Assembly (NCBI GenBank): GCA_963169055.1
Contig: CAUJFU010000261.1
Location: 1 to 36,119 of the forward strand
DNA length: 36,119 nt
From: Myxococcota bacterium
GTDB taxonomy: Bacteria; Myxococcota_C; UBA6777
Reading direction: 5' to 3'
In this document: in pieces, positions 19,716-36,119 of the stretch
How positions within the stretch are numbered: position 1 is the first letter of the stretch
Layout: each line of letters begins with the position of its first letter
The notes under the pieces: model-generated
Databases searched by the model: none
Told to the model about the DNA's origin: nothing
Seen by the model: the letters and a program-made list of their open reading frames with translations, nothing else
Translations under genes and position numbers: made by a program

Positions 19716-21074
19716 TCACGGTTTCTGTTCTTTGCGCGTGATCGGTGCCGTCCGTTGGGGATTTGCAATCACACTTGCTTCCGCGATCTTAAAAAAATGC
19801 AACAACCCTTGACCGATCCCTCGTGCGATCTCTGATCGATATCTCGCCGTTCCCAACAAGCGCTCCTCTGTTGGGTTCGTTAAAAAAGACGCTTCAACCA
19901 AAATTCCCGGAACTTCGGAAGCAAAAAGCAAATAAAACAATCCATCACGCACCCCCAAGTCCCGAACCTGCGGATACGTTGCCTGTACGCCCTGCACCAT
20001 TCCTCGTTGGATCGCAACCCCCAAAACCCTCGAAACAACGGAGTGATTTTGCACTTGCATCCCACTCAAGATCAAATTGACGTCTTGGAAAAGACTTGGA
20101 TCCACTCCTTGGTTTTCACGAGCCATCAACGCATCCGACGCCATCAACCGCGACGCATAAAAACGCTCGTCCCAATTTAACAAGTAGGTTGCCAGCCCCT
20201 GTAACTTTCGATCTCGGTTCGCGTTGATATGCACAGAAATCAGTAAATCCGCCGCTTTTTGCTTCACCAACAAAGCCCGTTGCGAGATCGACATGTACTC
20301 GTCTTGTTCCCGCGTCAAAAAAAACTCCACCGACGTTCTTGGACGCAGCCAATTCACCAACCGGCGGGCTATATCCAGCGTCACGGTCTTTTCCCGCAGC
20401 CTCGTTCGCAACCCAACTGCCCCATCTTCTCGCCCTCCATGCCCTGCATCAATCGCCACTCGGCGCACTCGAACAGGAAACGGCAAACGCAACGGACCCT
20501 CGTAACGCAAGACGTACGGGCGCTTCTCGGGCGGAGATGCCGGGTTTCCCTCAACAGGGCGACCCAACGTGCTGGACTCTCTGGCGTTCTGTTGCAACGC
20601 GGGCTGTTGGGCTGGCAAAGGGGTCTTTGTCGTTGGACGCACTGGCAACTTTTGATCCGCAAGATCGATCACGATCCGCACAGGATCGCTCAATACCGTG
20701 ACTTGCGAGCGCCCCACCTCTCCTAACTCCAGAACCACCCGCGTGGTACGCAATGTGTGACGTGCCACACGCATTCGACGCAAACGCCGCCCTTGTACCA
20801 ACAACGGCCCCTGCCTCAACCTCCGCACCGGCAAACAAGGCGTCAAATCAACATACAAGCGCGGGGGGAGCCCTTGATGCACGACCGCAGGCGCTTCCCC
20901 TTCTTCGATCTGCACCCGCCCGCTCAACAACAACACCACACGCGTATAATTCTCGCGTTTTTCGTAGCGAATCTCTCGCAAAACACGCATCCGCGTTCGC
21001 TTCGCTGCGTGGGGTTGTTCCACTCCCATCCATCCCAACAAAAAGAATCCTATGGCCCAAATCTTGTTGCGCAT
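19716..21074 (-). CDS. N-acetylmuramoyl-L-alanine amidase (AMIN + Amidase_3)
   Basis: The 452-aa product has a signal peptide (MRNKIWAIGFFLLGWMGV..), an AMIN-like targeting domain at about residues 30-140, a Pro/Gln-rich linker, and an Amidase_3 catalytic domain from about 200 to the end. The zinc ligands and catalytic residues are visible: H212 in DAGHGG, E228 in 'REKTVTLDIA', H282 in 'SVHINA' and E394 in 'VEASFLTNP'. It cleaves the bond between MurNAc and L-Ala in the periplasm, as AmiA/B/C do during cell separation. An extra insert around 'GVDPSLFQDVNLILSGMQ' may be the autoinhibitory helix region seen in AmiB/AmiC. Its stop lies only about 18 bp before the -35 box of the str promoter, leaving no room for a terminator. 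Confidence 0.92.
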   Translation of the reverse strand: MRNKIWAIGFFLLGWMGVEQPHAAKRTRMRVLREIRYEKRENYTRVVLLLSGRVQIEEGEAPAVVHQGLPPRLYVDLTPCLPVRRLRQGPLLVQGRRLRRMRVARHTLRTTRVVLELGEVGRSQVTVLSDPVRIVIDLADQKLPVRPTTKTPLPAQQPALQQNARESSTLGRPVEGNPASPPEKRPYVLRYEGPLRLPFPVRVRRVAIDAGHGGREDGAVGLRTRLREKTVTLDIARRLVNWLRPRTSVEFFLTREQDEYMSISQRALLVKQKAADLLISVHINANRDRKLQGLATYLLNWDERFYASRLMASDALMARENQGVDPSLFQDVNLILSGMQVQNHSVVSRVLGVAIQRGMVQGVQATYPQVRDLGVRDGLFYLLFASEVPGILVEASFLTNPTEERLLGTARYRSEIARGIGQGLLHFFKIAEASVIANPQRTAPITRKEQKP

Positions 21075-21434
21075 TGCTTCTACCGCTTTATTTCAAAAAC
21101 ACTTCCTTGCGCTTCTCGAACGCTCGTTTGCTTCTCGATGAATCAACACGAATGCGCTTGGAAACGACCGTTGGCTTGGTGTTGATGCTTCTTTCACAAC
21201 GGCCCCTGTCCTCGTGTGTCTCTTCGCCCACCGCACGACGCGTTCGGTGCGTCGCTTTGTTATGCCAGAACCTACTCTCGCGCAAGTCCCTCCCTTTGAC
21301 ACCGCACCTTATGTGCCCGCCAACAAAAACACGCCTTCTTTACCTCCACGCGGTTGATCTCTGCGCCGGCATAGCGTAACATACACCCCCACTCTGCGCT
21401 TAAGTGCCGTCTCTTGCGAATCGAGGAGTTTGCC
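21075..21434. other. divergent intergenic region with a candidate plus-strand promoter
   Basis: This 360-base stretch separates the amidase (minus) from the GYF/TPR gene (plus) and holds no credible ORF. On the plus strand TTGATC (21354-21359), a 17-bp spacer and TAACAT (21377-21382) could be the promoter of the large gene, about 45 nt before its start. I could not find clear boxes for the amidase. Confidence 0.35.
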
Positions 21435-24400
21435 TTGACACGCGATCGTTCCAAATCCCCTCCAGATCCAAAACAGCCTTTTCGACCCTCCGAAACGGCA
21501 CGCTCTCATCCACCCCAACCCACCCACCACACCAACGCGCTCCCCCATCAACACGTCGCTCAAGCCCCAAACAACTCACCATCTCATCGACCTACGCGCC
21601 CTCCTGCCTCCCCGCAACACCGTCAATCCTCCGCACATCCTCCTCACCCCCCCACACAAAAACAGACTTTTTCAAGCGACCAACTTCATGAAATCTCCCC
21701 AGAAGTTTGGGATATCGAAGAGAATCATCCTCCGCTTCCCGAACACTCGCCTTCTCGCTCTGTTATCAGCCCACCACGACATTATCGCCCACCACAATCA
21801 GACTATCCCCCTTCTACCTATCAACCTCGATCAAAAACCAACCTCCCACAATTCTCGAAAACAGATCTCCCTTCGGCCTATTCGCCTGCTTCCATCCAAA
21901 TGGATGCTTACCCACCCGCAAACCATCCCGCTCCCCATCGCGGATTTTCTGGTTCTTACCCTGCACCCCATTTTGGGCAACAAGCTACCGCCTACCCCCC
22001 TTCCCCTCAAGGCCCCTACCCACAGCGCAGCCCCTCAAGCGATCAATACAACGCACGCCACTGGACCCCTCCCGAAGAACCCCTCGGCGAGTCCCTCTCT
22101 TTCGCCGATCTCCCCATGGCGGATGACCATCTCCCCGAACAGATCGCCATGCAAGAACAAGATCTCGATGTTTTTGATGACTTTCTCTCGGCCAACACCT
22201 CCCCTCCTTTCAAGCCCAACCACGACCACCCGCTTACCCCCCTCACCAGCGCACGAGAAATTAGCGATCTCCTTGGTGAACCCTTACGGTTTGAAGATCG
22301 CCTTTCTTCTGAAACAGAACTACCTTCTTTCTACGAACAACCTCCTCCCCACAATCCGCCTATTTCAGCTTCCGCACTCCCTGACCTTCCGTCGCTCTCC
22401 GAAGATCTACGCTCCGCCATCCGCAAAACCGTTGACCCTGTTCCTCCCTATCGGAACACTGCCTCCCATGCTCCCCCTGCCCTCCCTGACCCCAGCTTCC
22501 ATCTCGCCGAAGCTCCGCCCTCACAAACACACTACCCTCGCCCACAACCCCGCAGCGACGAGCACCCAACGCCACCCGTTCTTGATGCCTCTCCAACCGA
22601 AGGAGGCCTCCGCTATTCCACAGGAAAGCGCAGCCCCTCTAAACCGAATCCCAATCCTGATACGGCTCCGCCCAAACAACCCGCCCCTCCCCGCCCGAAT
22701 ACCCTCCCCAACGAGAAAAAAAACCCGCCAAATCATTCAAAGATGCAAGAGCTTTTAAAAGACTTCATCCACAGCGAAAACGAGGCGACCTCGACCCTTC
22801 AGCGCTTTTTGATCCGCCGTGGTGGGAAGCAATTTGGACCCTTCCACGAAGAAGAAATCTTCGATATGTTGAACAAACATGAATTGGATGGCAACGAAGA
22901 TCTCGCTCCCTTGCTCGCAGAGTCCCCCGAAACACTCCAATGGCAACCCCTTTACACTTGGACCAGCTTTTCACCCCTCATCCAATGGCTCGATCAAAAT
23001 CCCCTTCGGGTCGCGATGCCGGGGACACGCACACGCAGCGAAGGCTCTACTCAGGCCCTCGTTGCTTCTTCGCGGGAAAATACGCCCGCCTCCACACAAA
23101 CCTCCTTCTGGCGAAGCATCCACCCCGCCGTCTGGACGCTTGCGAGTCTTCTTTTCTTTGGCAGCATCTTCGCCACTTTTTGGGCCTTTCGCAGCGCATC
23201 CTTCCGACGAAGCCAACGCCTCAAAAAACCCCCGCTTTCCCTCACCCAACGCGCTCTCCAGCTCGATCACATCCAAGCGCACCGCACGCTCAGCCAAAAA
23301 GCCATGCAGGCTTATCAACAACAAAAAACCCCTGCAGACTGGCTCGCGATCCGCTACGCTTATCTTCTCTTTGATAGCCACGGCATCGAACGCTCGATGC
23401 GCGCAGATGTCGAGATCATCTGGCGCGATCTCCTGAAACAAAAGTTCCCTCCCGCCCTCCAAAAAGAATTTTCACTCGTCGAATTGAGCCGTGCAATCGC
23501 TCTGCGCTCCCAAGATGACCTTCAAAAAATCTACCCACAACTTCGACAATCTCTAAAAGAGCGCATTCAAGACCCCGCATGGGGATACGCGATCGCCCGA
23601 ATGTTCGAACTCATGGGGCGCGAAAAACCCGCCATCGAGATCTATCGCTCCCTCTGTCAAAAACACGCCGCTTACGTCCTGCCTTGTTGGCGACAAGCAC
23701 TCTACCACCTCCGACACAACCAAGAAAACCAAGCCACGGCTTTTTTGCTTCAAGCCAAAAGCCGTGCCCCCGAACATCTCCCTACCCTTCTCACGATCCT
23801 TCAACACGCTTGGCAAAAGGATACGCCCGAGTGGAACGCCCGCATCCTTCAAATCCGCCAAGCCCTCCAACAAAAAACCCTCGATACACGCTACCCACAG
23901 TCCCTGATGGCTCAATACCACGCGCTCGAAGCACGCTACCTCTGGAGCGAAAACCAAGCAGATGAAGCCCTCCGCGCCCTCGAAAAAGCCCACAACCTCG
24001 CACCCCAAAACGAGGACATCCTCCAGCGTCGCCTGCGCTATGCTTTTTGGGCTGGACAACCCCAACGCGCCTTGGACGCCATCCAAAAAACATACCCACA
24101 ACACACCCCACAACAGCCCGAGATGCTCTTGCTTTACTTCCAGCTTTTGCGCCACTTCAACCTGCGCAAACCTTGGCAACAAGCCCTCCGTCACCTTCAG
24201 AAAAAAGGGCTTGCCCACCCTCGTAACCGCTTCCTCACTCTCTACATCCAAGGCCAATGGTTCGAACTTCAAGGCAAAACACAGATCGCCTTACAAGCCT
24301 ACCGCCAAGCCCTCCAAGAGCGTTGGCGACCCCAAACCCCCTTTGCCTACCCTGCCCTGATGCGCCTGTTGTTGGCCCAAGAAGAACCCGATCCCAACGA

Positions 24401-25619
24401 GCGCACCAAATACCTCGAAGACTTTTTGCGCGATTACCCAAACCAACCTGAACCCCTCTATTGGCGCGCTCTCTCTCTCGATCCCACCAAAGAATCCGCC
24501 GAGCGTCTCGCCCTCCAACAAACTCTGCGCTCCCGCTTCCCTCGTTCCCCCTACGGCTACGAATTGGTCGCTCTTGATACGACACGCCCCCCCCATGAAC
24601 GTCTCGCCTTTTTGCGCCAAGCCTACACCCTTGGCGACGGACGCATCCGCTTGATCTACCCGCTGATCCAGACGCTTACCGACCAAGGCCACACCAAAGA
24701 AGCTCTCCCCTACATCAAATACGCCCTCCAAACACGCCCTCCCACCGAACATTGCAAGATCTTTTCGATACAATCTCTTGTCCTCGCCAATCTCGCAAAA
24801 TGCGAAGAAATACCCTCCCCCGAACAATGCCCTTCCCATCATTTCGCCCTTGCCAACGGCATTTGCCTCTTGCGCGATGCAAAGGCAGAACAGGCTCTCC
24901 CACTCTTCCAACGCGCAGAAGCCCAAAGCGAAGAAAAAACCGCGATGCAATTCGGACAAGCTCTTGCGTATGTCGCTTCCGAAAAACTCCCGAAAGCCAT
25001 CCGTATTCTTGAAATCTTGCTCAAAAAAGAAACCGATCTGCTTCCTGCTTGGCTGCTTTGGCTTCAACTCGCCACAGACACCAAAGCCCGCTCTGCCTTG
25101 CGACTCTTTCACAAAAAATCCACTCTCCCTACCCACACAGATCTCCTCCACGCTTGGCCTTTTTTGCTGGATCTTCTGTTTCAAGATGCCCCTGCCTCCA
25201 CAAAAAAACTCAAAAAGTGGCTTTCCTCCCCTCTCCCTTCCAAGCCCAAATCCCTTTCAAAAAAACAGAAAAAAAGCCACCCAAAACCCCCCACACCTGC
25301 CCAACTTCCGCGTTCCGCTTCTTCCGATACTCTCCCCACCATCACACCGCGCATCCGCGCACTTTTGCAAATCCTTTTCGACCTCCAACAACAACCCAAC
25401 ACCGCAAAGGCTCGCTTTGCCGCTCTTGCTCGTGACTACCCCCTTTGGGAGATCCCGTGGCTCGCACAAAGCGAGATCGCACGGCGCGAAAACAATCCCC
25501 CCGCGTGTCGCTCGCCGCTCGTTCAACTCCGCCACAGCACGCCACCGCCCTCCCCTTCTATGCGACTTCTGCTCGCTTATCTTTACGCACGTTGTCTTCC
25601 CCCAGCTTCCGACGAATAA
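21435..25619 (+). CDS. large Pro-rich / GYF_2-like / membrane-anchored TPR protein
   Basis: The 1394-aa product is a family I cannot name. I choose the TTG at 21435-21437 because GAGGAG lies 6 nt before it; the track starts seven codons earlier at another TTG inside no visible binding site. Residues 1-450 are disordered and rich in Pro, Ser, His and Tyr ('YPP' motifs). About 457-525 resembles a GYF_2 domain ('IRRGGKQFGPFHEEEIFDML', later 'LQWQPLYTW'). One membrane helix follows near 566-585 ('WTLASLLFFGSIFATFWAF'). From about 600 to 1380 come TPR-like helical repeats ('ALRALEKAHNLAPQNEDIL', 'ALQAYRQAL'), broken by a Lys/Pro linker near 1270. Predicted topology is N-terminus in the cytoplasm and TPR region in the periplasm. 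GYF domains bind proline-rich peptides, so it might bind itself. Similar GYF-type domains occur in myxobacterial motility proteins (such as GltJ), from memory. Confidence 0.75.
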   Translation: MTRDRSKSPPDPKQPFRPSETARSHPPQPTHHTNALPHQHVAQAPNNSPSHRPTRPPASPQHRQSSAHPPHPPTQKQTFSSDQLHEISPEVWDIEENHPPLPEHSPSRSVISPPRHYRPPQSDYPPSTYQPRSKTNLPQFSKTDLPSAYSPASIQMDAYPPANHPAPHRGFSGSYPAPHFGQQATAYPPSPQGPYPQRSPSSDQYNARHWTPPEEPLGESLSFADLPMADDHLPEQIAMQEQDLDVFDDFLSANTSPPFKPNHDHPLTPLTSAREISDLLGEPLRFEDRLSSETELPSFYEQPPPHNPPISASALPDLPSLSEDLRSAIRKTVDPVPPYRNTASHAPPALPDPSFHLAEAPPSQTHYPRPQPRSDEHPTPPVLDASPTEGGLRYSTGKRSPSKPNPNPDTAPPKQPAPPRPNTLPNEKKNPPNHSKMQELLKDFIHSENEATSTLQRFLIRRGGKQFGPFHEEEIFDMLNKHELDGNEDLAPLLAESPETLQWQPLYTWTSFSPLIQWLDQNPLRVAMPGTRTRSEGSTQALVASSRENTPASTQTSFWRSIHPAVWTLASLLFFGSIFATFWAFRSASFRRSQRLKKPPLSLTQRALQLDHIQAHRTLSQKAMQAYQQQKTPADWLAIRYAYLLFDSHGIERSMRADVEIIWRDLLKQKFPPALQKEFSLVELSRAIALRSQDDLQKIYPQLRQSLKERIQDPAWGYAIARMFELMGREKPAIEIYRSLCQKHAAYVLPCWRQALYHLRHNQENQATAFLLQAKSRAPEHLPTLLTILQHAWQKDTPEWNARILQIRQALQQKTLDTRYPQSLMAQYHALEARYLWSENQADEALRALEKAHNLAPQNEDILQRRLRYAFWAGQPQRALDAIQKTYPQHTPQQPEMLLLYFQLLRHFNLRKPWQQALRHLQKKGLAHPRNRFLTLYIQGQWFELQGKTQIALQAYRQALQERWRPQTPFAYPALMRLLLAQEEPDPNERTKYLEDFLRDYPNQPEPLYWRALSLDPTKESAERLALQQTLRSRFPRSPYGYELVALDTTRPPHERLAFLRQAYTLGDGRIRLIYPLIQTLTDQGHTKEALPYIKYALQTRPPTEHCKIFSIQSLVLANLAKCEEIPSPEQCPSHHFALANGICLLRDAKAEQALPLFQRAEAQSEEKTAMQFGQALAYVASEKLPKAIRILEILLKKETDLLPAWLLWLQLATDTKARSALRLFHKKSTLPTHTDLLHAWPFLLDLLFQDAPASTKKLKKWLSSPLPSKPKSLSKKQKKSHPKPPTPAQLPRSASSDTLPTITPRIRALLQILFDLQQQPNTAKARFAALARDYPLWEIPWLAQSEIARRENNPPACRSPLVQLRHSTPPPSPSMRLLLAYLYARCLPPASDE

Positions 25620-25703
25620 GCCTTTTCACTTGATTTTCCGACCCTTCCAAGCCTATACCCTCTTTTTTCGTATCTCTGCCTCTCCCTAGATAGGAGTCCT
25701 CTC

Positions 25704-27371
25704 ATGCCTTCTCCCTCGCGTACCTCACCCCATGTTTTGCACCTACCCCTCGCTGTCTTTGGCGCGCTATTGGGTGCGTGGGCCGTTATTTTTGGTTTCC
25801 TGCTTCCTTTCTTTTGGCCGCCGTCGATCCGGTGGCTCATCCATTCACCCGAATCCATCGGCGTTCCCATCTTCGGGATCTCTGTTCTCACCAGCGCGAT
25901 CCTCAGCCCCTTTCTCTTGATCTTGGGTATGCAATCGATCGCACCCACGATCTCTACACGCCTCCATACCTTGTTCCGAAAGACCCTTGCCATCGAACTT
26001 TTGCTCGGTTCTTTTCTCTGGCTCTTGATCGATATTGTTCGCCTTTTCCAAGCCGATCCTTCGATCCAAAGCATGCTGACCCGCAAACTGATCTTGATGG
26101 ATCCTGCCTTCATTCGGGCCTTTCCCGGCCTCTTCCTTGCGCCGCTGTCTCTTTCCCTTGGCTGCGGCTTGCTCATTCACGACCGCCTGCGCGATCAGAT
26201 CGGCCTCTTTCTCACCACCCTTGCTTACGAAAGCCTCGTACTACTCGCCATCTTCGGATATATCCTCCAAGGTGCCACCGATCAAGCCGGATTGATCGCT
26301 CAAGCCATCACCCAAAAAGCCATCCTCGGACTCCATTCGGATATCGCACAACCCCTCGCAAAGCTCCTCCAATCGCTCTTTCCCTCGCTCACCGCAAGCA
26401 CGCTGAGCAAACACATCGCTGGTTTGATCGTCGCGCTTTATATCGCCCTTCCTTCGGGTGCATTGTTGTGGTCATGGAGTAAACAACGCCAGTTGTCCGC
26501 ACGTTCCACCGCGTTGCTTTTTCTTAGCCCTCTTCTGCTCGTCTTGCTGCTGGATCGGGCCTTCGCGCTCGCTTCTCCCCTTACAGCCAATCTCCTCCTC
26601 AGCGCGACGGCTGCGCTGCTCTCCGTCCCTCTTCTTCTTACCCTTGTATCGGCCTTACTCCCTCTTTACGCGCTGCTCGGCCTCTCTCTCCGACAGCCCA
26701 AACCCTCTTACCCCCAATTCGCTGTCATCTGGCTGCTTTTTGGGTTTTCTTTCTTCTTGCTTCGCCTCTTTGTCTTCTACAGCAACACCCTCCCCGCTGG
26801 ACAAAACCTCCACAAGATCACACTATTGCTCGCTTTCCTCGTACCCATCGCAGGCATCGCGGGCGTTTGGTGTATGCAGCCCGAACTGCGCCTCCGCGCA
26901 CAGCTGCTTTTTAGCGCGCCTCTTTGGGTTCCCTTCTTTTTCCTCTTTTTCCTCTGGTCACTTATCCTCAACACGACCCTCTACTTCCTCAGCGATCTCT
27001 CCAAACGCACGCTACAACCTCCGCTATGGATGCGGATCTTTCCTTTGTCTGTCCTCAGCTTGCTGCTCTTTCCGCTGTTGCTCGTTCTCGACTTTGTCGT
27101 GGGCATGATGCGTCAGCTCGGAGAAAATGCCCTCGACGCACTCTATCCACGCGAAGAACGCATCACTTCCGAGGGTGAATCCACCCAAGCACCCGCACTT
27201 TCCGTTGCTTATGTACTTGGTGCGCTGCTCTTGCTCAGCTTACCTCTGTGGGGCCTCCCCGCTCTGCTTTATCTTGCGGTTCGCTTGTTTGTCTACGAAG
27301 CCATCATCCTCCAATTGCTCGGTGGTTCCGATGAAAACGATGCCCCACAAGCCTCCGATATCTCCAAATAA
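25704..27371 (+). CDS. polytopic inner-membrane protein of unknown function
   Basis: The 555-aa product has roughly a dozen or more hydrophobic helices spread over its whole length and few charged loops. Examples are 'VFGALLGAWAVIFGFLLPFFW' near the N-terminus and 'LLLLSLPLWGLPALLYLAV' near the C-terminus. The only sizeable soluble stretch is near residues 470-495 ('RQLGENALDALYPREERITSE'). I recognise no transporter signature. The ATG has AGGAG 7 nt upstream. It starts 84 nt after the GYF/TPR gene on the same strand, so the two are probably co-transcribed and may work together in the inner membrane; that is inference. Confidence 0.7.
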   Translation: MPSPSRTSPHVLHLPLAVFGALLGAWAVIFGFLLPFFWPPSIRWLIHSPESIGVPIFGISVLTSAILSPFLLILGMQSIAPTISTRLHTLFRKTLAIELLLGSFLWLLIDIVRLFQADPSIQSMLTRKLILMDPAFIRAFPGLFLAPLSLSLGCGLLIHDRLRDQIGLFLTTLAYESLVLLAIFGYILQGATDQAGLIAQAITQKAILGLHSDIAQPLAKLLQSLFPSLTASTLSKHIAGLIVALYIALPSGALLWSWSKQRQLSARSTALLFLSPLLLVLLLDRAFALASPLTANLLLSATAALLSVPLLLTLVSALLPLYALLGLSLRQPKPSYPQFAVIWLLFGFSFFLLRLFVFYSNTLPAGQNLHKITLLLAFLVPIAGIAGVWCMQPELRLRAQLLFSAPLWVPFFFLFFLWSLILNTTLYFLSDLSKRTLQPPLWMRIFPLSVLSLLLFPLLLVLDFVVGMMRQLGENALDALYPREERITSEGESTQAPALSVAYVLGALLLLSLPLWGLPALLYLAVRLFVYEAIILQLLGGSDENDAPQASDISK

Positions 27372-28483: not shown

Positions 28484-29725
28484 TTATTTTTTCTTCTTTT
28501 TGCTGCTTTTGTTGGCAGTTTGTTGCGAGGCAGAGGATTTCGGGGCGGGCTTGTGCTGATTCGGAGCATTGTTCTTTTTCGGAGGAGCGGCCTTTGCCGA
28601 AGGAGCGGTCTTTATCGAAGGAGCGGTCTTTGCCGAAACAGCAGAGACTTCATCCGAGGGTGGGTTTGCGGGTGCTTTGGGGGCGGCCTCTTTAGCCTTA
28701 TTCGATGCCTTTGCAGGAGAAGATGTAGACGAAAGAGGCGGATCTTTCGGAGAAGATGGGCGCTGCCGATCTTTGGACGCTGCCCCGCTTTTGGGAGCCG
28801 AAGCCGAAGCCTTGAAAGGCGGAGGATTGCGATAGGGCGAAGCATCATCCCCCACAAAGGAGGTGCGATTTTGTTGGAGTCGGATCATCATTACCACCCC
28901 GACGAGGAACATCGGGACAGAATAAAACATCCCCGAAGTGAACCATCCCAACGACCAAGCGATGCTCGGATCGCGCACAAATTCAACCATCGTCCGAAAT
29001 AGACCATAGAAGGCGACAAACGCCCACGCCATCACACCCCGCGCAGGCTTGCGGCTTTTGATAAACAACAAGATCAACATCAGCACCAAGCCCTCAAGCA
29101 AAGCCTCGTAAAGCTGCGAAGCGTGGCGTGGCTCTGTGTACGGGCGCAATGCCTCAGGAAGTTTGATCCATTTCTCGTATCCACCGACCTTATCGTAGAG
29201 GGGAAAGCGCATCCCCCAGATCGAAGACGTCTTTGTTCCGTAGAGTTCGGCGTTAAAGAAGTTCCCCATCCGACCGAAAAACAGCCCGGGCGTCGCAGCA
29301 AGAACCGCCCAATCCCCGATGTGCGAAAACTTGTAATTGTAGCGGCGCAAGAACAACAAGATCGCCACAAACACCCCGAACAATCCGCCGTGAAAAGACA
29401 TCCCGGACAAGGCAAAGTGGCTAAACTTCCCATCAGGTCGATAATGGAAGCCGATGACTTCCCAAGGCCGCAAAACAAACACTTCTGGGCTATACAGGAT
29501 ATAGTTGCCCACCCGCGCACCGATCATCAAACCAAGGATCAGATACATCATCAAGTCGTAGAGTCCGCCCTCTTCTTCGAGCGAGATCTTGAACTCCTTG
29601 GTTTTGATATAATGGCGCATGATCAAGAAGCCAGACAAAAAGCCCAACACATACATCGTGCCATACCAACGCAGCGGGATATCTGGCGAGATAATAAACG
29701 GCGATAACCACTCTGGATACTTCAT
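28484..29725 (-). CDS. lgt: prolipoprotein diacylglyceryl transferase with disordered C-terminal tail
   Basis: The 413-aa product starts at MKYPEWLSPFIISPDIPLRW (ATG 29723-29725, AAAAGGAG upstream); 20 track residues before it are untranslated. Residues 1-285 are the membrane enzyme, which moves diacylglycerol from phosphatidylglycerol to the lipobox Cys. Lgt signatures are present: 'SFHGGLFG' (H112), 'GRMGNFFNAELYG' at 151, 'EPRHASQLYEALLEG' near 200, and 'FRTMVEFVRDPS' near 243. Residues 286-413 are a low-complexity tail of Ala, Pro, Ser and Lys ending in KKKKK, absent from ordinary Lgt of about 260-300 residues. It should lie on the cytoplasmic side, since the Lgt C-terminus does. Confidence 0.93.
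   Translation of the reverse strand: MKYPEWLSPFIISPDIPLRWYGTMYVLGFLSGFLIMRHYIKTKEFKISLEEEGGLYDLMMYLILGLMIGARVGNYILYSPEVFVLRPWEVIGFHYRPDGKFSHFALSGMSFHGGLFGVFVAILLFLRRYNYKFSHIGDWAVLAATPGLFFGRMGNFFNAELYGTKTSSIWGMRFPLYDKVGGYEKWIKLPEALRPYTEPRHASQLYEALLEGLVLMLILLFIKSRKPARGVMAWAFVAFYGLFRTMVEFVRDPSIAWSLGWFTSGMFYSVPMFLVGVVMMIRLQQNRTSFVGDDASPYRNPPPFKASASAPKSGAASKDRQRPSSPKDPPLSSTSSPAKASNKAKEAAPKAPANPPSDEVSAVSAKTAPSIKTAPSAKAAPPKKNNAPNQHKPAPKSSASQQTANKSSKKKKK
28581..28634 (-). repeat. 18-bp tandem repeat inside the lgt tail
   Basis: Three 18-bp units (GAAGGAGCGGTCTTTGCC and close variants, plus-strand sense) stand in a row and encode a hexapeptide like APSAKT on the minus strand. They show how the tail has grown by slippage. 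Confidence 0.6.
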
Positions 29726-30244
29726 CAAACATCGCTCCTTTTCACAAACTGCACACCAAACAGACAGATCGAACACACAGCACATGGGAACTTTTTAACG
29801 ATTCGGCCAACCATCTACACCAGCGTTCGGCCAGAACCCACAAGGCACAAACAAGATTTAGATCGCCAAACGTTGCTCGTCGTTCAACGAGATCACGCTC
29901 GGTACCCCACTGCTCACCCCAACGATGAGATAGGGCCAAACAAAACTCGACAAGCCCCGACGCGATCGCGCAGCAAAGTACAAACAAGCAACTCGGCACG
30001 CAAGTAGGCCCCCGCTCTCTGCACGTCGCACATACCGCCAACCCAAAGAAAGCTCTCGTGTCACTTACGGACAAAAACCCCCGTGTTCGCGTTCTTTCAA
30101 GCGGCAGAGTTGTTGGTTTGCAAACATCTGTTCAGCCCGCCAATCCGAGGTCAAGGGGGCAACGCTCTGTGGCGGGGCGGGGTACCTCGCCCCACATCCA
30201 CAAGATCAACCACAAAAGCCCGATACTACGAAGGAGACGATCTC
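29726..30244. other. divergent lgt / alpha-2-macroglobulin intergenic region
   Basis: About 520 bases without a credible gene. Features seen are a TGGCCGAA direct repeat on the lgt side, a GTTTGCAAAC palindrome near 30.12 kb, and copy A of the double-hairpin repeat just before the macroglobulin start. No promoter boxes stand out clearly in either direction. Confidence 0.45.
30149..30195 (+). repeat. double-hairpin intergenic repeat, copy A
   Basis: The plus strand starts GGTCAAGGGGGC and ends CGCCCCACA, as copy B does on the minus strand. The right part, GGGGCGGGGTACCTCGCCCC, is a near-perfect 20-bp palindrome with one G/T mismatch. The left hairpin is degenerate. It lies about 50 nt before the macroglobulin start and may fold in its leader. 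Confidence 0.5.
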
Positions 30245-33200
30245 TTGAAAAAGAACAAACGCCTAAAACGAAACGTGCTGTGGCTTTTTGGCACAGCACT
30301 ACTCCTCGGCGGCAGCCTCGCTTGTGAGCCCCGTCAGATCGCCCAAAACGTCGATCGCCTCACCAAAGCCCCTCTCAGCTTTATCGACTGGGGCTGGTCT
30401 ACACCGCCGATGCCGCGCTTTGCGCCCTTGCGCTTTTCCGACAAATCTCCACTCCCCCCCACGCCTCCGCTTCCCCCCTCTTCTGCCCCTCCCACTGCGC
30501 AAAAACAACTCGCCGCCCTTTCAACCGAAGGCCCGCTGTGTTCATCCCAAAAACTAAAGCTCCAAGATCGCGGATTTGCCGAGCGGATCAAACGCTCCAT
30601 CGGAAATGGCCGCAACTACCGGCTGCTCCTCGAAACCGATAAACCTCTCTACAAACCAAGCGAAACCATCTGGGTGCGCGGCGTCGAGATCCAAGAATAC
30701 ACCAACGACACCCGCCAAGCCCTTGATGCCGCAATCTTTGAATTGCGCGGACCTCGCGGCGATATCGTGCATCGGCACAAACTCCCCGTTGCGCAAGGCC
30801 ACACCATGACCGCCTTTCCTCTCAGCAACGACGCAAAAGGCGGTGAATACACGCTCCACCTCCACTTCCAAAGCACCCAAAGCAAGGCCGAGAAAAAAAT
30901 CTTTGTCATGGCCTATCAACCACCCCGCCTCCAAATGAAAATGGAATTCGTGCGCAAAGGATACGGACCCGGCGATACCATCGAGGCCACGCTGCGCGTC
31001 AAGACCGCTTCAGGGGGGATCTTGGCAAACCACCCCGTACGCGCAGAAGCCGCCCTCTCAGGTCGCGTGTTTCGCCAATGGACCGCCAAAACCAACGACA
31101 AAGGTCACCTTTTGCTGCGCGCCGATCTACCGAAAGAAACCACTTCCGAAGAAGGTACGTTGACGGCCTTTGTGACAGAGTCGGGCGCACAAGAATCGAT
31201 CTCTCGCGCAATCCCCCTTCGCGCCAAGCGCCTATGGGTGGGGTTTTTCCCCGAAGGCGGCAGTCTGGTGAGTGGACTCCAAAACCGCGTATACTTCTCG
31301 ATCCGCCGCCAACTCGATCAAAAGCCCCAAGACATCGAAGGGATCATCGAAGACAGCACTGGGGCCAAGATCGCCGAAGTTCGGTCTTTCTACGATGGTA
31401 TGGGTCGATTTAGCTTCGTTCCAGCAGACAAACAAACCTACACGCTACGAATCACCCAACCCATCGGACTGACCGAACGATACCCCTTGCCCTCCGCTCG
31501 GCGCAACGTCGATTTGACGATGCGGCTTGTGGACGATTGGCAATCCCAAAACCCCGATCTCCAGATCCTTGTCGAAGCGCAAAAGCCCCGTCAGATCGTT
31601 GTCATGGCGATGCAACATGAACAGATCATCGGACACCAAAGCTACATCCTCAAACAAGGCGCACAACATCTCAAACTGCCATTGACCTCGCAAAAACGAG
31701 GGATCGTGCGTCTGACATTGTTTGATGCAGCCTATCGCACCCCGATGGCCGAGCGTTTGGTGTTTCGACATCTCGACCAACAAGTCAAGATCGAGATCTT
31801 CCCCGATCAACCAAGCTATCAGCCCCGTCAAACCGCGAATCTCAAGATCCGCGTGACGGACCTCCAAGGAAAACCGCTCAAAGATGCCCGCCTCGGGGTC
31901 GCAGTTGTCGATGATACCGTCCTCACCTACGCCGATGACCACGAACCACACATCCTCACCCAACGCCACCTCACCACCCAACTCGTCGGCAAGATCTACA
32001 AGCCCAACCGCTACTTCCGCGCCTCCAACAAACAACGCTTCGCGGCCATCGACCTCGTGATGGGAACCCACGGATGGCGCGACTTTTCGTGGAAGCTGCT
32101 CAAAACAGGGCGCCCTCCTAAAGCTCTTGTGGAACTCACCGAAACCCCGGATACTTCGTTTCTTCAACAACCGCTCGCCCAAGATGAATCCGCGATCCAA
32201 CAAGCGCAGTGGCTCAGTCAACGCCGTAGGCATCGACGATTTCGCAGCTATGGTGGATACACAGGACAACGCTACGAATCCTCACCCGAACCCACCGCAA
32301 CGATCCAAAGCCCAGCCGAACCACCAACAGGTTTGGGGATGCGAAGCGATGGAATCGGCGGCGGGGGAGCATTCGGATCGTTGGGCGGCACAAGACGCGG
32401 CAACATCGGCGGAACGGGGCGCGGCTATGGCAGCGCAAATCGTACAGAAAATGGTTCGGCCCCACGCCCCACAAGAGCCAAACGCCCAGCAAGAGCCAAA
32501 CGCCTCGCAAGACCCACCACTACCGAACCGCCCGCTGTCGCATCTCCCGCCGAATTACCCACGCCCACCCCTGTCGCGAGGGCTGCTCCTTCCGCACGCA
32601 CACAAAAGCCCGAATCACCGCCGCCTGCACGTATCCCGATGCCTGCTCCCGATCTTGAAAAAAGCGCCTCTGCTGTAAGCAACACACAAAACGCCCCCTC
32701 CGCAGAACCTGCGCCCTCACAAGAACAACAGCGCGCCAACCCCGATCCTGCGCCTGTGATGGGCAGCGTAGACGAGAAACAATCTCCCCCTGCTGATATC
32801 GTCCGACCGTTCAGCGCAGACGAAGCAGCACGTCCGAAAAAATCGCGAGCTCCCGCTCGTCGTGTACGCCGTTCTCGTCGTGGAATGCGTGGCAAGCGAG
32901 ACAGAGCCCGACGCAGATGGAACACCATCGCGGCTCATAGCGGAATGGCTCCCCTTACAGCGATCGCGACCGCGCCCACTGCTTCGTTGTTTGCACGACT
33001 CTCTTGGCAAACTCCTCGCGTCTTCCCAATCCGCTTTTACGCCCAAACCAACACAGCCCCCACAAACCCCACACAACCGACCCAAGCCCAAGCCCCCACA
33101 AAACGCACAGACTTTCGGGAAACCCTGTATTGGAACCCGTTGATCAAAACGGATGCTTGGGGAGAAGCCAAGATCAGCTTCGGTCTCAACGATAGCATCA

Positions 33201-35176
33201 CCTCTTTTCGGATCCTAACCACCAGCGTTGGAGGCGGATACATCGGGAGAAAAACACACACCATCGCCTCCAAGCGGCCCTTCTTCCTCGCCGTTCGCAT
33301 CCCCAACGAAGTCTCTTCCTCCGACGCGATGGTCCTCCCCATCACCTTGCGCAACGACAGCAAAACCCCACTCACCCTCCGCACGAAAATCCAGATCAGC
33401 CACCATTTTAAACTGCTCGAAGATCCTTTCGCAGACGGCCTCACCCTCCAACCCAACGAAGGCATCACCACCTTTTTGCCGCTGCGTGTTCAAGCCCAAC
33501 GTGGCGAAGGCTCCGTCAGCATCACCGCCTCCTCCCAAGGTCTCTCCGATGCGATCTCGCAATCCATCCGCATCCGCCCTCGCGGGTTCCCCCGCCAAGT
33601 CGGTGTTTCAGGCACCCTTCGACACGAAACACCCCAACAATTCGCCTTGCAACTTCCTCCTGCCAGAGATTTCACCAATCTCCACACACAACTCAAACTC
33701 TACACCTCTTCCCTCCAAGGCATGACCCAAGCCGCCGCTGGTATGCTCCGCTATCCGTCGGGTTGCTTTGAACAAACTTCCTCCACCAACTACCCCAACA
33801 TCATGGCCTTGCGCTACCTCAAACAAAAACGCATCGACAATCCCGCCCTTTACGCCCGCGCCCATCGCTATCTCGCTTCGGGATACCGCCGCCTGATCAG
33901 CTTCGAGATCCGAGGCGGCGGCTTCGATTGGTATGGCTCTCCTCCCGCTGACGAAGCCCTCTCCGCTTACGGCCTCCTCCAATTCCTCGCCATGCGCGAT
34001 GTCTATCCCGTCAGCGAATCTCTACTCAAACGCACGCGCCGTTGGCTCAAAAGCCGACGAAACGGAAAAGGCGGCTTTCGTACAGGCCGAAGCTACGGCG
34101 ACTTTGGAAATACCTCCCGCGACGTTCACAACGCCTACATCACCTTTGCTTTGTTTGAAGCAGGCGAACGTGACCTATCCACCGAGCTTTCCGCAGCCCA
34201 ACACACCGCAACCCAAACCCAAGATGCCTACCTGCTCGCTCTCGCCACCCTCGCCACTCAACACGCTCATGGCCCCAAAAGCGCCGAAGCTGCCGCTTAT
34301 TTGAAGCAACTGCTCAAACAACGCCGCGCAGGTGGGCATTTCCGAGGCCGCAAAGGCTCTTTTGTCGGATCCTACGGTAGCAACCTCGCCATCGAAACCA
34401 CCTGCTTCGCCATCCTCGCCATGCTACGCGCCCAGATGCCCGAAGAACGGATCTCTCCTTCTGTGTATTGGCTTCAACAACGACGCAGTATGTACGGGCG
34501 TTATGGAGCTACTCAAGCCACCGTCCTCGCTCTGCAAGCCCTTGCCGCCTTTGAACAGCGCTTCCCTTCGACCTCCACCAAGTACGAGCTGCTCGCATCG
34601 CTTGACGACACTCCCTTCTTTACCCAAACGCTCGACCCCCAACACAGCAACCTAAACCGTTCCATCTACCAAAAAATCCCCCTGCACCCGGGCAAAAATC
34701 AACTCAAAGTTTCGCTCAAAGGCAAAACCAACATCCCCTTTAGCGCCCACGCCTCTTTCTACATCTACACACCTCCTTCCGCCCGCAACGCACCGATACA
34801 CCTTGAGATCGAGATGAGCAAGCGTCGCCTCAAACTCGGCGAGATCACCCGTCTCTCCGCCTCGATTCTCAACAAAAGCGACCAACCACAAGCCATGACT
34901 CTCGCACGCATCGCCTTTCCCGGCGGCCTCACCCCCCAGATCTGGCAACTCAAAGAACTCAAAGAAAAAAACATCGTCGACTTTTACGAACTCCATCCCC
35001 GCGAACTGATCGTCTATTTGCGCAGCATGAAACCCAAAGCCCGACGCACCCTCCACCTCGACCTTGTCGCCCACGTCACCGGCAACTACACCGGCCCCGC
35101 CTCTTCTGCCTACCCCTACTACAGCGACGACCTCAAGTTTTGGCAACACCCCCTCCGCATCAGCATCATCCCTTAA
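30245..35176 (+). CDS. alpha-2-macroglobulin family protease-trap, probably lipid-anchored
   Basis: The 1643-aa product starts, in my reading, at the TTG at 30245-30247 with AAGGAG 8 nt upstream; the track's 54 extra residues cover the repeat. A signal peptide ends at 'LLGGSLAC' (C27), an imperfect lipobox. Macroglobulin (MG) domains follow, e.g. 'LLETDKPLYKPSETIWVRGV' near 125 and 'FPDQPSYQPRQTANLKIRV' near 520. About 655-940 is a low-complexity stretch (Arg/Gly, then Pro/Ala, then Arg-rich) in the bait position. 'ETLYWNPLIKTDAWGEAKISF' begins the next domain, and the thioester motif is intact: 'YPSGCFEQTSS' with Cys 1174. A helical thioester domain and a final beta domain end the protein. 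Members trap proteases by bait cleavage and covalent capture, protecting the cell envelope. It is not next to pbpC as in E. coli. Confidence 0.9.
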   Translation: MKKNKRLKRNVLWLFGTALLLGGSLACEPRQIAQNVDRLTKAPLSFIDWGWSTPPMPRFAPLRFSDKSPLPPTPPLPPSSAPPTAQKQLAALSTEGPLCSSQKLKLQDRGFAERIKRSIGNGRNYRLLLETDKPLYKPSETIWVRGVEIQEYTNDTRQALDAAIFELRGPRGDIVHRHKLPVAQGHTMTAFPLSNDAKGGEYTLHLHFQSTQSKAEKKIFVMAYQPPRLQMKMEFVRKGYGPGDTIEATLRVKTASGGILANHPVRAEAALSGRVFRQWTAKTNDKGHLLLRADLPKETTSEEGTLTAFVTESGAQESISRAIPLRAKRLWVGFFPEGGSLVSGLQNRVYFSIRRQLDQKPQDIEGIIEDSTGAKIAEVRSFYDGMGRFSFVPADKQTYTLRITQPIGLTERYPLPSARRNVDLTMRLVDDWQSQNPDLQILVEAQKPRQIVVMAMQHEQIIGHQSYILKQGAQHLKLPLTSQKRGIVRLTLFDAAYRTPMAERLVFRHLDQQVKIEIFPDQPSYQPRQTANLKIRVTDLQGKPLKDARLGVAVVDDTVLTYADDHEPHILTQRHLTTQLVGKIYKPNRYFRASNKQRFAAIDLVMGTHGWRDFSWKLLKTGRPPKALVELTETPDTSFLQQPLAQDESAIQQAQWLSQRRRHRRFRSYGGYTGQRYESSPEPTATIQSPAEPPTGLGMRSDGIGGGGAFGSLGGTRRGNIGGTGRGYGSANRTENGSAPRPTRAKRPARAKRLARPTTTEPPAVASPAELPTPTPVARAAPSARTQKPESPPPARIPMPAPDLEKSASAVSNTQNAPSAEPAPSQEQQRANPDPAPVMGSVDEKQSPPADIVRPFSADEAARPKKSRAPARRVRRSRRGMRGKRDRARRRWNTIAAHSGMAPLTAIATAPTASLFARLSWQTPRVFPIRFYAQTNTAPTNPTQPTQAQAPTKRTDFRETLYWNPLIKTDAWGEAKISFGLNDSITSFRILTTSVGGGYIGRKTHTIASKRPFFLAVRIPNEVSSSDAMVLPITLRNDSKTPLTLRTKIQISHHFKLLEDPFADGLTLQPNEGITTFLPLRVQAQRGEGSVSITASSQGLSDAISQSIRIRPRGFPRQVGVSGTLRHETPQQFALQLPPARDFTNLHTQLKLYTSSLQGMTQAAAGMLRYPSGCFEQTSSTNYPNIMALRYLKQKRIDNPALYARAHRYLASGYRRLISFEIRGGGFDWYGSPPADEALSAYGLLQFLAMRDVYPVSESLLKRTRRWLKSRRNGKGGFRTGRSYGDFGNTSRDVHNAYITFALFEAGERDLSTELSAAQHTATQTQDAYLLALATLATQHAHGPKSAEAAAYLKQLLKQRRAGGHFRGRKGSFVGSYGSNLAIETTCFAILAMLRAQMPEERISPSVYWLQQRRSMYGRYGATQATVLALQALAAFEQRFPSTSTKYELLASLDDTPFFTQTLDPQHSNLNRSIYQKIPLHPGKNQLKVSLKGKTNIPFSAHASFYIYTPPSARNAPIHLEIEMSKRRLKLGEITRLSASILNKSDQPQAMTLARIAFPGGLTPQIWQLKELKEKNIVDFYELHPRELIVYLRSMKPKARRTLHLDLVAHVTGNYTGPASSAYPYYSDDLKFWQHPLRISIIP

Positions 35177-35246
35177 ACCCTGTCTCAGCCCTCCACAACT
35201 CATCGCACTTTTCCTGCCCGCTTCTTCGCAAACCGCCATATCGCCC

Positions 35247-35276
35247 TTGACAGGCCGCGAAACGGATTGGTATGTT
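35247..35276 (+). promoter_or_regulatory. promoter of sixA
   Basis: TTGACA is followed after 18 bp by TATGTT with an extended -10 (TGG before it), about 50 nt before the sixA start in the 151-nt gap after the macroglobulin gene. Confidence 0.6.
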
Positions 35277-35327
35277 CCCCCCCCGATTGCTCTCGATTGT
35301 CCCCACCACCGCCGAGATGATAGATCC

Positions 35328-35831
35328 ATGAAAAAAATCTACCTTGTCCGACACGGTAAAGCCCTCAAACAAGCGGGCCTTCTTGACGCCGAACGCCCTC
35401 TCGTCCACGAAGGGGTCCAAGAATCCCGTCATGCCGCCCGATTCTTGCTCCGCGCAGGTCTCACTCCCGCGCTCTTGCTTTCAAGCCCCGCACGCCGCGC
35501 AGCAGAAACCGCCAAGATCTTCTGCGAGCGATGGGAACGCCCCATCGACAGCATCCAGATCAACGAGCGCATCTACACCGACGATCACGAAGGATTGTGG
35601 CGACTCTTGCGTACACTTGACGATCAGCACGAAGCCGTCTGCTTGTTTGGTCACAACCCCTCCTTTGAAAACCTCGCCCGCGCTCTCTCAAACCAATACA
35701 ATCAGCCACTCCCTACAGGCGGCGTCATCAGCATCTCCTGCCCTGTCGAGTTTTGGCGCGATCTCCAAAAACAAATCAATGCCTTCGATTTTCTCGAAGT
35801 CCTCCCGCTCAACTCAACTAAACGTTTATAA
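35328..35831 (+). CDS. sixA: SixA-type phosphohistidine phosphatase
   Basis: The 167-aa product starts at MKKIYLVRHGKALKQAGLLD (ATG 35328); the track's 88 upstream residues are a shadow of the macroglobulin gene. Histidine-phosphatase signatures are the RHG with catalytic H9, 'LLSSPARRAAETA', 'CLFGHNPSFENLARAL' with the second active-site His, and 'LPTGGVISI'. The short form without extra domains is SixA, which removes phosphate from His on phosphorelay or PTS proteins. The stop is TAA at 35829-35831, yet the same frame continues open to the window end through an 18-bp repeat. Confidence 0.9.
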   Translation: MKKIYLVRHGKALKQAGLLDAERPLVHEGVQESRHAARFLLRAGLTPALLLSSPARRAAETAKIFCERWERPIDSIQINERIYTDDHEGLWRLLRTLDDQHEAVCLFGHNPSFENLARALSNQYNQPLPTGGVISISCPVEFWRDLQKQINAFDFLEVLPLNSTKRL

Positions 35832-35955
35832 AAACAAATCAACACAGAAAAACAAATCAGATCAGAAAAACAAATCAGCTCAGAAAAACAAATCACCTCA
35901 GAAAAACAAATCAGCTCAGAAAAACAAATCAGCTCAGAAAAACAAATCAGCCCAG
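35830..35955. repeat. 18-bp tandem repeat, seven units
   Basis: Seven head-to-tail copies of AAAAACAAATCAGCTCAG and close variants run from 35830 to 35955, with a decayed eighth. The 18-bp period keeps every frame open; in the sixA frame it encodes KQISSE, and in another KNKSAQ. There are no spacers, so it is not a CRISPR array. Confidence 0.95.
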
Positions 35956-36119
35956 AAAAGCAAGATCAAAAACACTTACAAACACAACTCATCGAAACAC
36001 TCGAATCAGCCGCCAAAACGATCGTTTCAGAGCTTTCGCTCAAGATGAAAGAGATCATCGAAAAAGCCGCAAAAAAACTAGCAAAAAAAATATCTCCTGA
36101 AAAAACAGAGAGCGAAAAT
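35832..36119 (+). CDS. open frame after sixA: hexapeptide repeat plus coiled-coil, runs off the window
   Basis: Directly after the sixA TAA, in the same frame, codons stay open to the last base. They encode seven KQIxSE-like hexapeptides, then an amphipathic charged helix ('QLIETLESAAKTIVSELSLK', 'KEIIEKAAKKLAKKISPEKT'). The helical periodicity favours this frame as the coding one. No ATG, GTG or TTG occurs in it before the ATG at 36045, which has no ribosome binding site, so the start is unexplained. It may be a C-terminal extension of SixA cut off by a stop mutation, a readthrough product, a base-call error, or a separate gene. It is partial at the window edge. Confidence 0.5.

Follow-up and report, generated by a model that had tools for sequence, protein, structure and literature searches.

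Two proteins of Myxococcus xanthus, GltJ/AgmX of the gliding machinery and the MglA effector SgmX, are the closest described systems for the locus considered here. In GltJ, the cytosolic zinc-ribbon and GYF parts act as an MglA-responsive switch. GltJ is counted among the MglA effectors (PMC12288465). SgmX lacks a transmembrane helix and is probably cytoplasmic, and its description makes no mention of GYF or zinc (PMC7519303). The genome that contains the window (the whole analyzed stretch of 36,119 nucleotides from a Myxococcota bacterium) encodes a separate GltJ-like protein with a zinc ribbon, a GYF domain, a helix and an AgmX-type tail, located beside an ftsY-like gene (G000:C511, L031:1448-3991, minus strand); it scores 136 bits with the GltJ model, below the cut-off of 450. 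The same genome has an mglA-like gene (L065:1190-1777, minus strand) with an adjacent mglB-like gene (L065:1965-2435, minus strand), identified by eye and by an Arf match, and Arf-family matches were found on ORFs of similar size in four relatives.

The locus comprises two genes, termed A and B, and A is flanked in the window by an amidase gene and by B. The sequence-only reading of this DNA had described a 1394-aa protein followed after 84 nt by a 555-aa many-helix membrane protein, and both ORFs, open throughout and separated by that gap, were confirmed. The features of the two genes are as follows.

21423..21428, plus strand: GAGGAG, likely ribosome-binding site of A, 6 nt upstream of the TTG (from the sequence)
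21435..25619, plus strand: gene A (1394 aa, start codon TTG), best taken as a diverged copy, without zinc ribbon, of a zinc-ribbon/arm/GYF/transmembrane/TPR kind of protein
21435..22754, plus strand: low-complexity arm, A residues 1-440, 21% Pro, no Cys, no PPG
22095..22424, plus strand: acidic segment, A residues 221-330, dN/dS 0.075, aligning with the acidic arms of other genera
22800..23015, plus strand: GYF domain, A residues 456-527, found by an independent model at 41.5 bits
23127..23183, plus strand: predicted transmembrane helix, A residues 565-583, from hydropathy; stronger in homologues
23232..25616, plus strand: TPR solenoid, A residues 600-1394, from TPR matches and AlphaFold
25692..25696, plus strand: AGGAG, likely ribosome-binding site of B
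25704..27371, plus strand: gene B, 555 aa, ATG start, polytopic membrane protein outside any known family
26256..26819, plus strand: hydrophobic insertion of about 190 residues, B residues 185-372, only in the window's genus

The sister genome (G001) has both genes, with protein identities of about 86% for A and about 93% for B, and dN/dS between it and the window's genome ranges from 0.08 to 0.30 in A and from 0.06 to 0.25 in B. Since both genes are kept in G001 and dN/dS lies at 0.06-0.30 in every segment, A and B are real, maintained genes. Downstream of B, the window encodes a prolipoprotein diacylglyceryl transferase of 433 aa that carries additional residues (28484-29785, minus strand) and, divergent from it, an alpha-2-macroglobulin protein of 1697 aa (30083-35176, plus strand). 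A strong C-over-G bias of the coding strand was observed at positions 21000-27000 and 30000-36000 of the window; it reaches an extreme at the four-fold sites of A and of the macroglobulin gene, and has the opposite sign in the amidase gene.

The earlier description of A as a proline-rich arm, a GYF_2-like domain, one membrane helix and TPR-like repeats is borne out by a GYF model and by the AlphaFold TPR superhelix. The GYF model, derived from 16 proteins of Myxococcota that all lie outside the window's bacterial family, scores residues 456-527 at 41.5 bits, the top score among 2000 shuffles of A being 6.4. Pfam GYF_2 itself matches neither A nor its isolated N-terminal part; it does match three A homologues of other genera in the region aligned to the GYF region of A, and the G004 homologue lies above the curated cut-off (26.0-27.9 bits versus 25.8). 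The groove of the A domain deviates from the usual form in lacking the first Trp characteristic of GYF_2, and in the AlphaFold model the order of elements at this position is strand, strand, helix, strand, strand, helix, at low confidence. The single hydrophobic helix of A is barely above the threshold (1.66 versus 1.6). Pfam reports only weak TPRs on A, and the AlphaFold model of residues 441-1394 contains a confident helical solenoid, with pLDDT of about 80-94 for a large part of its length, that is well modelled to approximately residue 1160 and of low confidence beyond. Foldseek matches of this model are TPR superhelices; the likeness to Ski3, Ctr9, IFT-A and APC/C is one of superhelix shape and does not show kinship. 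MamA, PrsT and LapB were rejected as the identity of A, the NCBIfam matches all being generic TPRs far below cut-off. A defence role for A or B was dropped, as PADLOC matches neither protein.

A profile of the GYF-helix-TPR part of A, searched in 58 Myxococcota genomes, matches 44 of them, and a GYF match on an ORF of about 1000-1770 aa was counted from the search output in at least 32 of the 58. All 16 Myxococcota homologues that were fetched possess a zinc ribbon (degenerate in one case), a proline-rich or acidic arm, a GYF domain, a helix and TPRs, and in 12 of these 16 loci the gene adjoins serS, which was confirmed in one case by TIGR00414. The canonical serS-adjoining member is present in the sampled genomes of the Myxococcus-like family. 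In a sample of 146 genomes from beyond the window's bacterial family, just one, the Myxococcota representative (G032), has this GYF type on a large ORF, and three others have it on short ORFs. No description of a zinc-ribbon/GYF/TPR protein was found in the literature searched, which was mainly openly licensed; the zinc-ribbon/arm/GYF/transmembrane/TPR class is conserved in Myxococcota and apparently without a name. The focus accordingly shifts from a one-off protein to a conserved myxobacterial protein class with a GltJ-like layout, the function of which is modestly interesting. Two other large proteins (L032:2417-5122 and L073:3122-6187, both minus strand) were seen beside zinc-ribbon proteins; they have a degenerate ribbon at the N terminus and two hydrophobic stretches, and repeat units resembling 'YVYQE..RAYAYW'.

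Within the window's bacterial family, A is present in 5/5 genomes. Its zinc ribbon is retained in the A proteins of G002, G003 and G004 and absent in the window's genus, where the arm has no Cys; the A protein of G003 has a short solenoid (756 aa). The family also has a second copy, A', which has retained the ribbon and whose GYF domain is more typical, scoring 54.9-65.7 bits versus 24.6-42.1 for A (G000:C159:5000-18000, with the gene at L071:1659-5021, plus strand; further copies in L072, L073 and L074). A' sits between a DHH-type gene and a gene for a secreted protein, near likely mevalonate-pathway kinases. In a GYF tree that is suggestive only, being based on a short alignment with midpoint rooting, the five A proteins form one clade and A' groups with the Myxococcota proteins, at support values of 0.87 and 0.78. 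Given the A' paralogue and this split in the tree, A is best read, on sequence evidence, as a diverged extra copy of a widespread Myxococcota scaffold-like protein and not as a new architecture. In the window's genus, the zinc ribbon of A has been lost and its arm has become longer.

By analogy with GltJ, an evenly balanced judgment is that A serves as a GltJ-like single-span inner-membrane adaptor reaching from cytosol to periplasm. What is shown for A is its domain content, its homology, its copy number and where it occurs; its topology, the binding of clients and any connection with MglA or B are inferred. The N-terminal arm and the GYF domain would lie in the cytosol and bind a client or regulator, the one helix would cross the inner membrane, and the TPR superhelix would hold envelope proteins in the periplasm. 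Such a protein would have arisen as a second, diverging copy of the Myxococcota zinc-ribbon/arm/GYF/helix/TPR protein, with ribbon loss and arm lengthening probably following in the window's genus. The long N-terminal part without a signal sequence before the single helix fits an N-in, C-out orientation. Lys and Arg residues around the helix, summed over the 16 Myxococcota homologues, agree with it (80 before, 41 after), and the sum over the five proteins of the window's bacterial family is reversed (14 before, 31 after). Because of this reversed charge bias, the TPR part of A is possibly cytosolic, or its helix weak. The altered GYF groove also counts against the adaptor reading.

The principal alternative is that A and B constitute an obligate two-protein envelope module in which the TPR part or the GYF arm of A docks on B. 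Both genes are present in all five genomes of the bacterial family, and in G000, G001 and G003 they are direct neighbours separated by a short gap (3/5 genomes, 2/3 genera). However, G002 and G004, which represent one genus, carry the two genes on separate contigs, and in both of them the DNA that follows A does not code for B. The thiI gene directly precedes A in G002, G003 and G004, and is not at that place in the window. The place of A is therefore independent of B, and B either joined A later or left it in one genus. The distribution of B is also much narrower than that of A-type proteins, which are common in Myxococcota: a B profile found 5/5 genomes of the window's bacterial family and 0/381 others, B was absent from 193 Myxococcota genomes (by a profile with a positive control only within the window's bacterial family), and a genome-contig scan with B returned only the sister MAG contig JAKLKB010000001.1.

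B has about 12 hydrophobic segments by hydropathy and no match in Pfam, NCBIfam, PADLOC or PDB, and thereby adds one orphan membrane-protein family. Its homologues in G002, G003 and G004 have 368-386 aa; self-duplication as the source of the insertion in the longer B was rejected, as it gave marginal matches only. An AlphaFold model from five sequences has a pLDDT of 41.7 and no usable fold. The most constrained region of B is its C-terminal part (dN/dS 0.06), which need not face A. An obligate A-B module is thus considered unlikely. The undescribed module with a polytopic partner that the sequence-only reading proposed is not well supported, since A belongs to a widespread kind and B to a single bacterial family, and since two of the five genomes lack the adjacency. 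B is more probably a lineage-specific neighbour of A than the conserved half of a new system. In some genera the two are possibly transcribed together, and B is perhaps among the clients of A.

A broader version of the adaptor reading, to which we give little credence, would take A and its ribbon-bearing relatives as undescribed Myxococcota-wide membrane adaptors that, in the manner of GltJ, pass a cytosolic signal (for example, from MglA) through arm and GYF domain to a periplasmic TPR scaffold, A and B being a lineage version with a new cytosolic input after the ribbon loss.

The GYF domain could instead bind a proline-rich arm, either that of its own chain or that of an adjacent one, so that A would self-associate or be switched on and off, as had been suggested from the presence of GYF and a potential ligand on one chain. 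In all relatives examined, an arm of 101-718 residues with 9-23% Pro does precede the GYF domain. The classical eukaryotic GYF ligand is PPG followed by a hydrophobic residue; bacterial GYF ligands are, to our knowledge, poorly known. However, residues 1-440 of A contain no PPG motif, and none of the 21 arms examined contains PPG with a following hydrophobic residue. The arm sequence is not conserved: its proline-rich ends are the least constrained and fastest-evolving part of A (dN/dS 0.30, 0.19 and 0.22), and constraint is strongest in the acidic stretch 221-330 (0.075). Moreover, C-richness covers the entire A gene, with a four-fold-site skew of -0.65 and only 2.1% Gly, so that the proline richness is possibly compositional in part. 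As the arm of A lacks PPG and its most constrained stretch is acidic, GYF-proline self-association is unsupported, and we regard it as very improbable. The view of A as a gene copy in decay that does little, which the ribbon loss in the window's genus, the diverged GYF domain and the short G003 solenoid might suggest, is hardly credible in view of purifying selection in all A segments (dN/dS 0.08-0.30) and its retention in 5/5 genomes.

The reading of A as a single-span adaptor can be set against the known systems. The ribbon-bearing Myxococcota proteins, of about 1000-1770 aa and homologous to A over about 520 profile positions at best, have in common with it the arm, the GYF domain (RR..GK.FGPF..), one helix and the TPR solenoid. 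A differs from them in having no N-terminal MJ0042-type zinc ribbon (no Cys in residues 1-440), in adjoining the amidase gene and B instead of serS, and in its separate position in the GYF tree. SgmX resembles A as a large protein with many TPRs. GltJ/AgmX shares with A a GYF domain before one membrane helix and proline-rich linkers, whereas A has neither the zinc ribbon nor the AgmX/PglI tail: it has no match to the AgmX/PglI-type tail (NF033768) or to the GltJ equivalog model at E up to 1, and the window is not among the AgmX-type tail matches listed for its genome. A TPR solenoid stands in place of that tail, and A would in this respect have the layout of GltJ/AgmX with TPRs replacing the GltJ tail and, by extension, a possible link to MglA.
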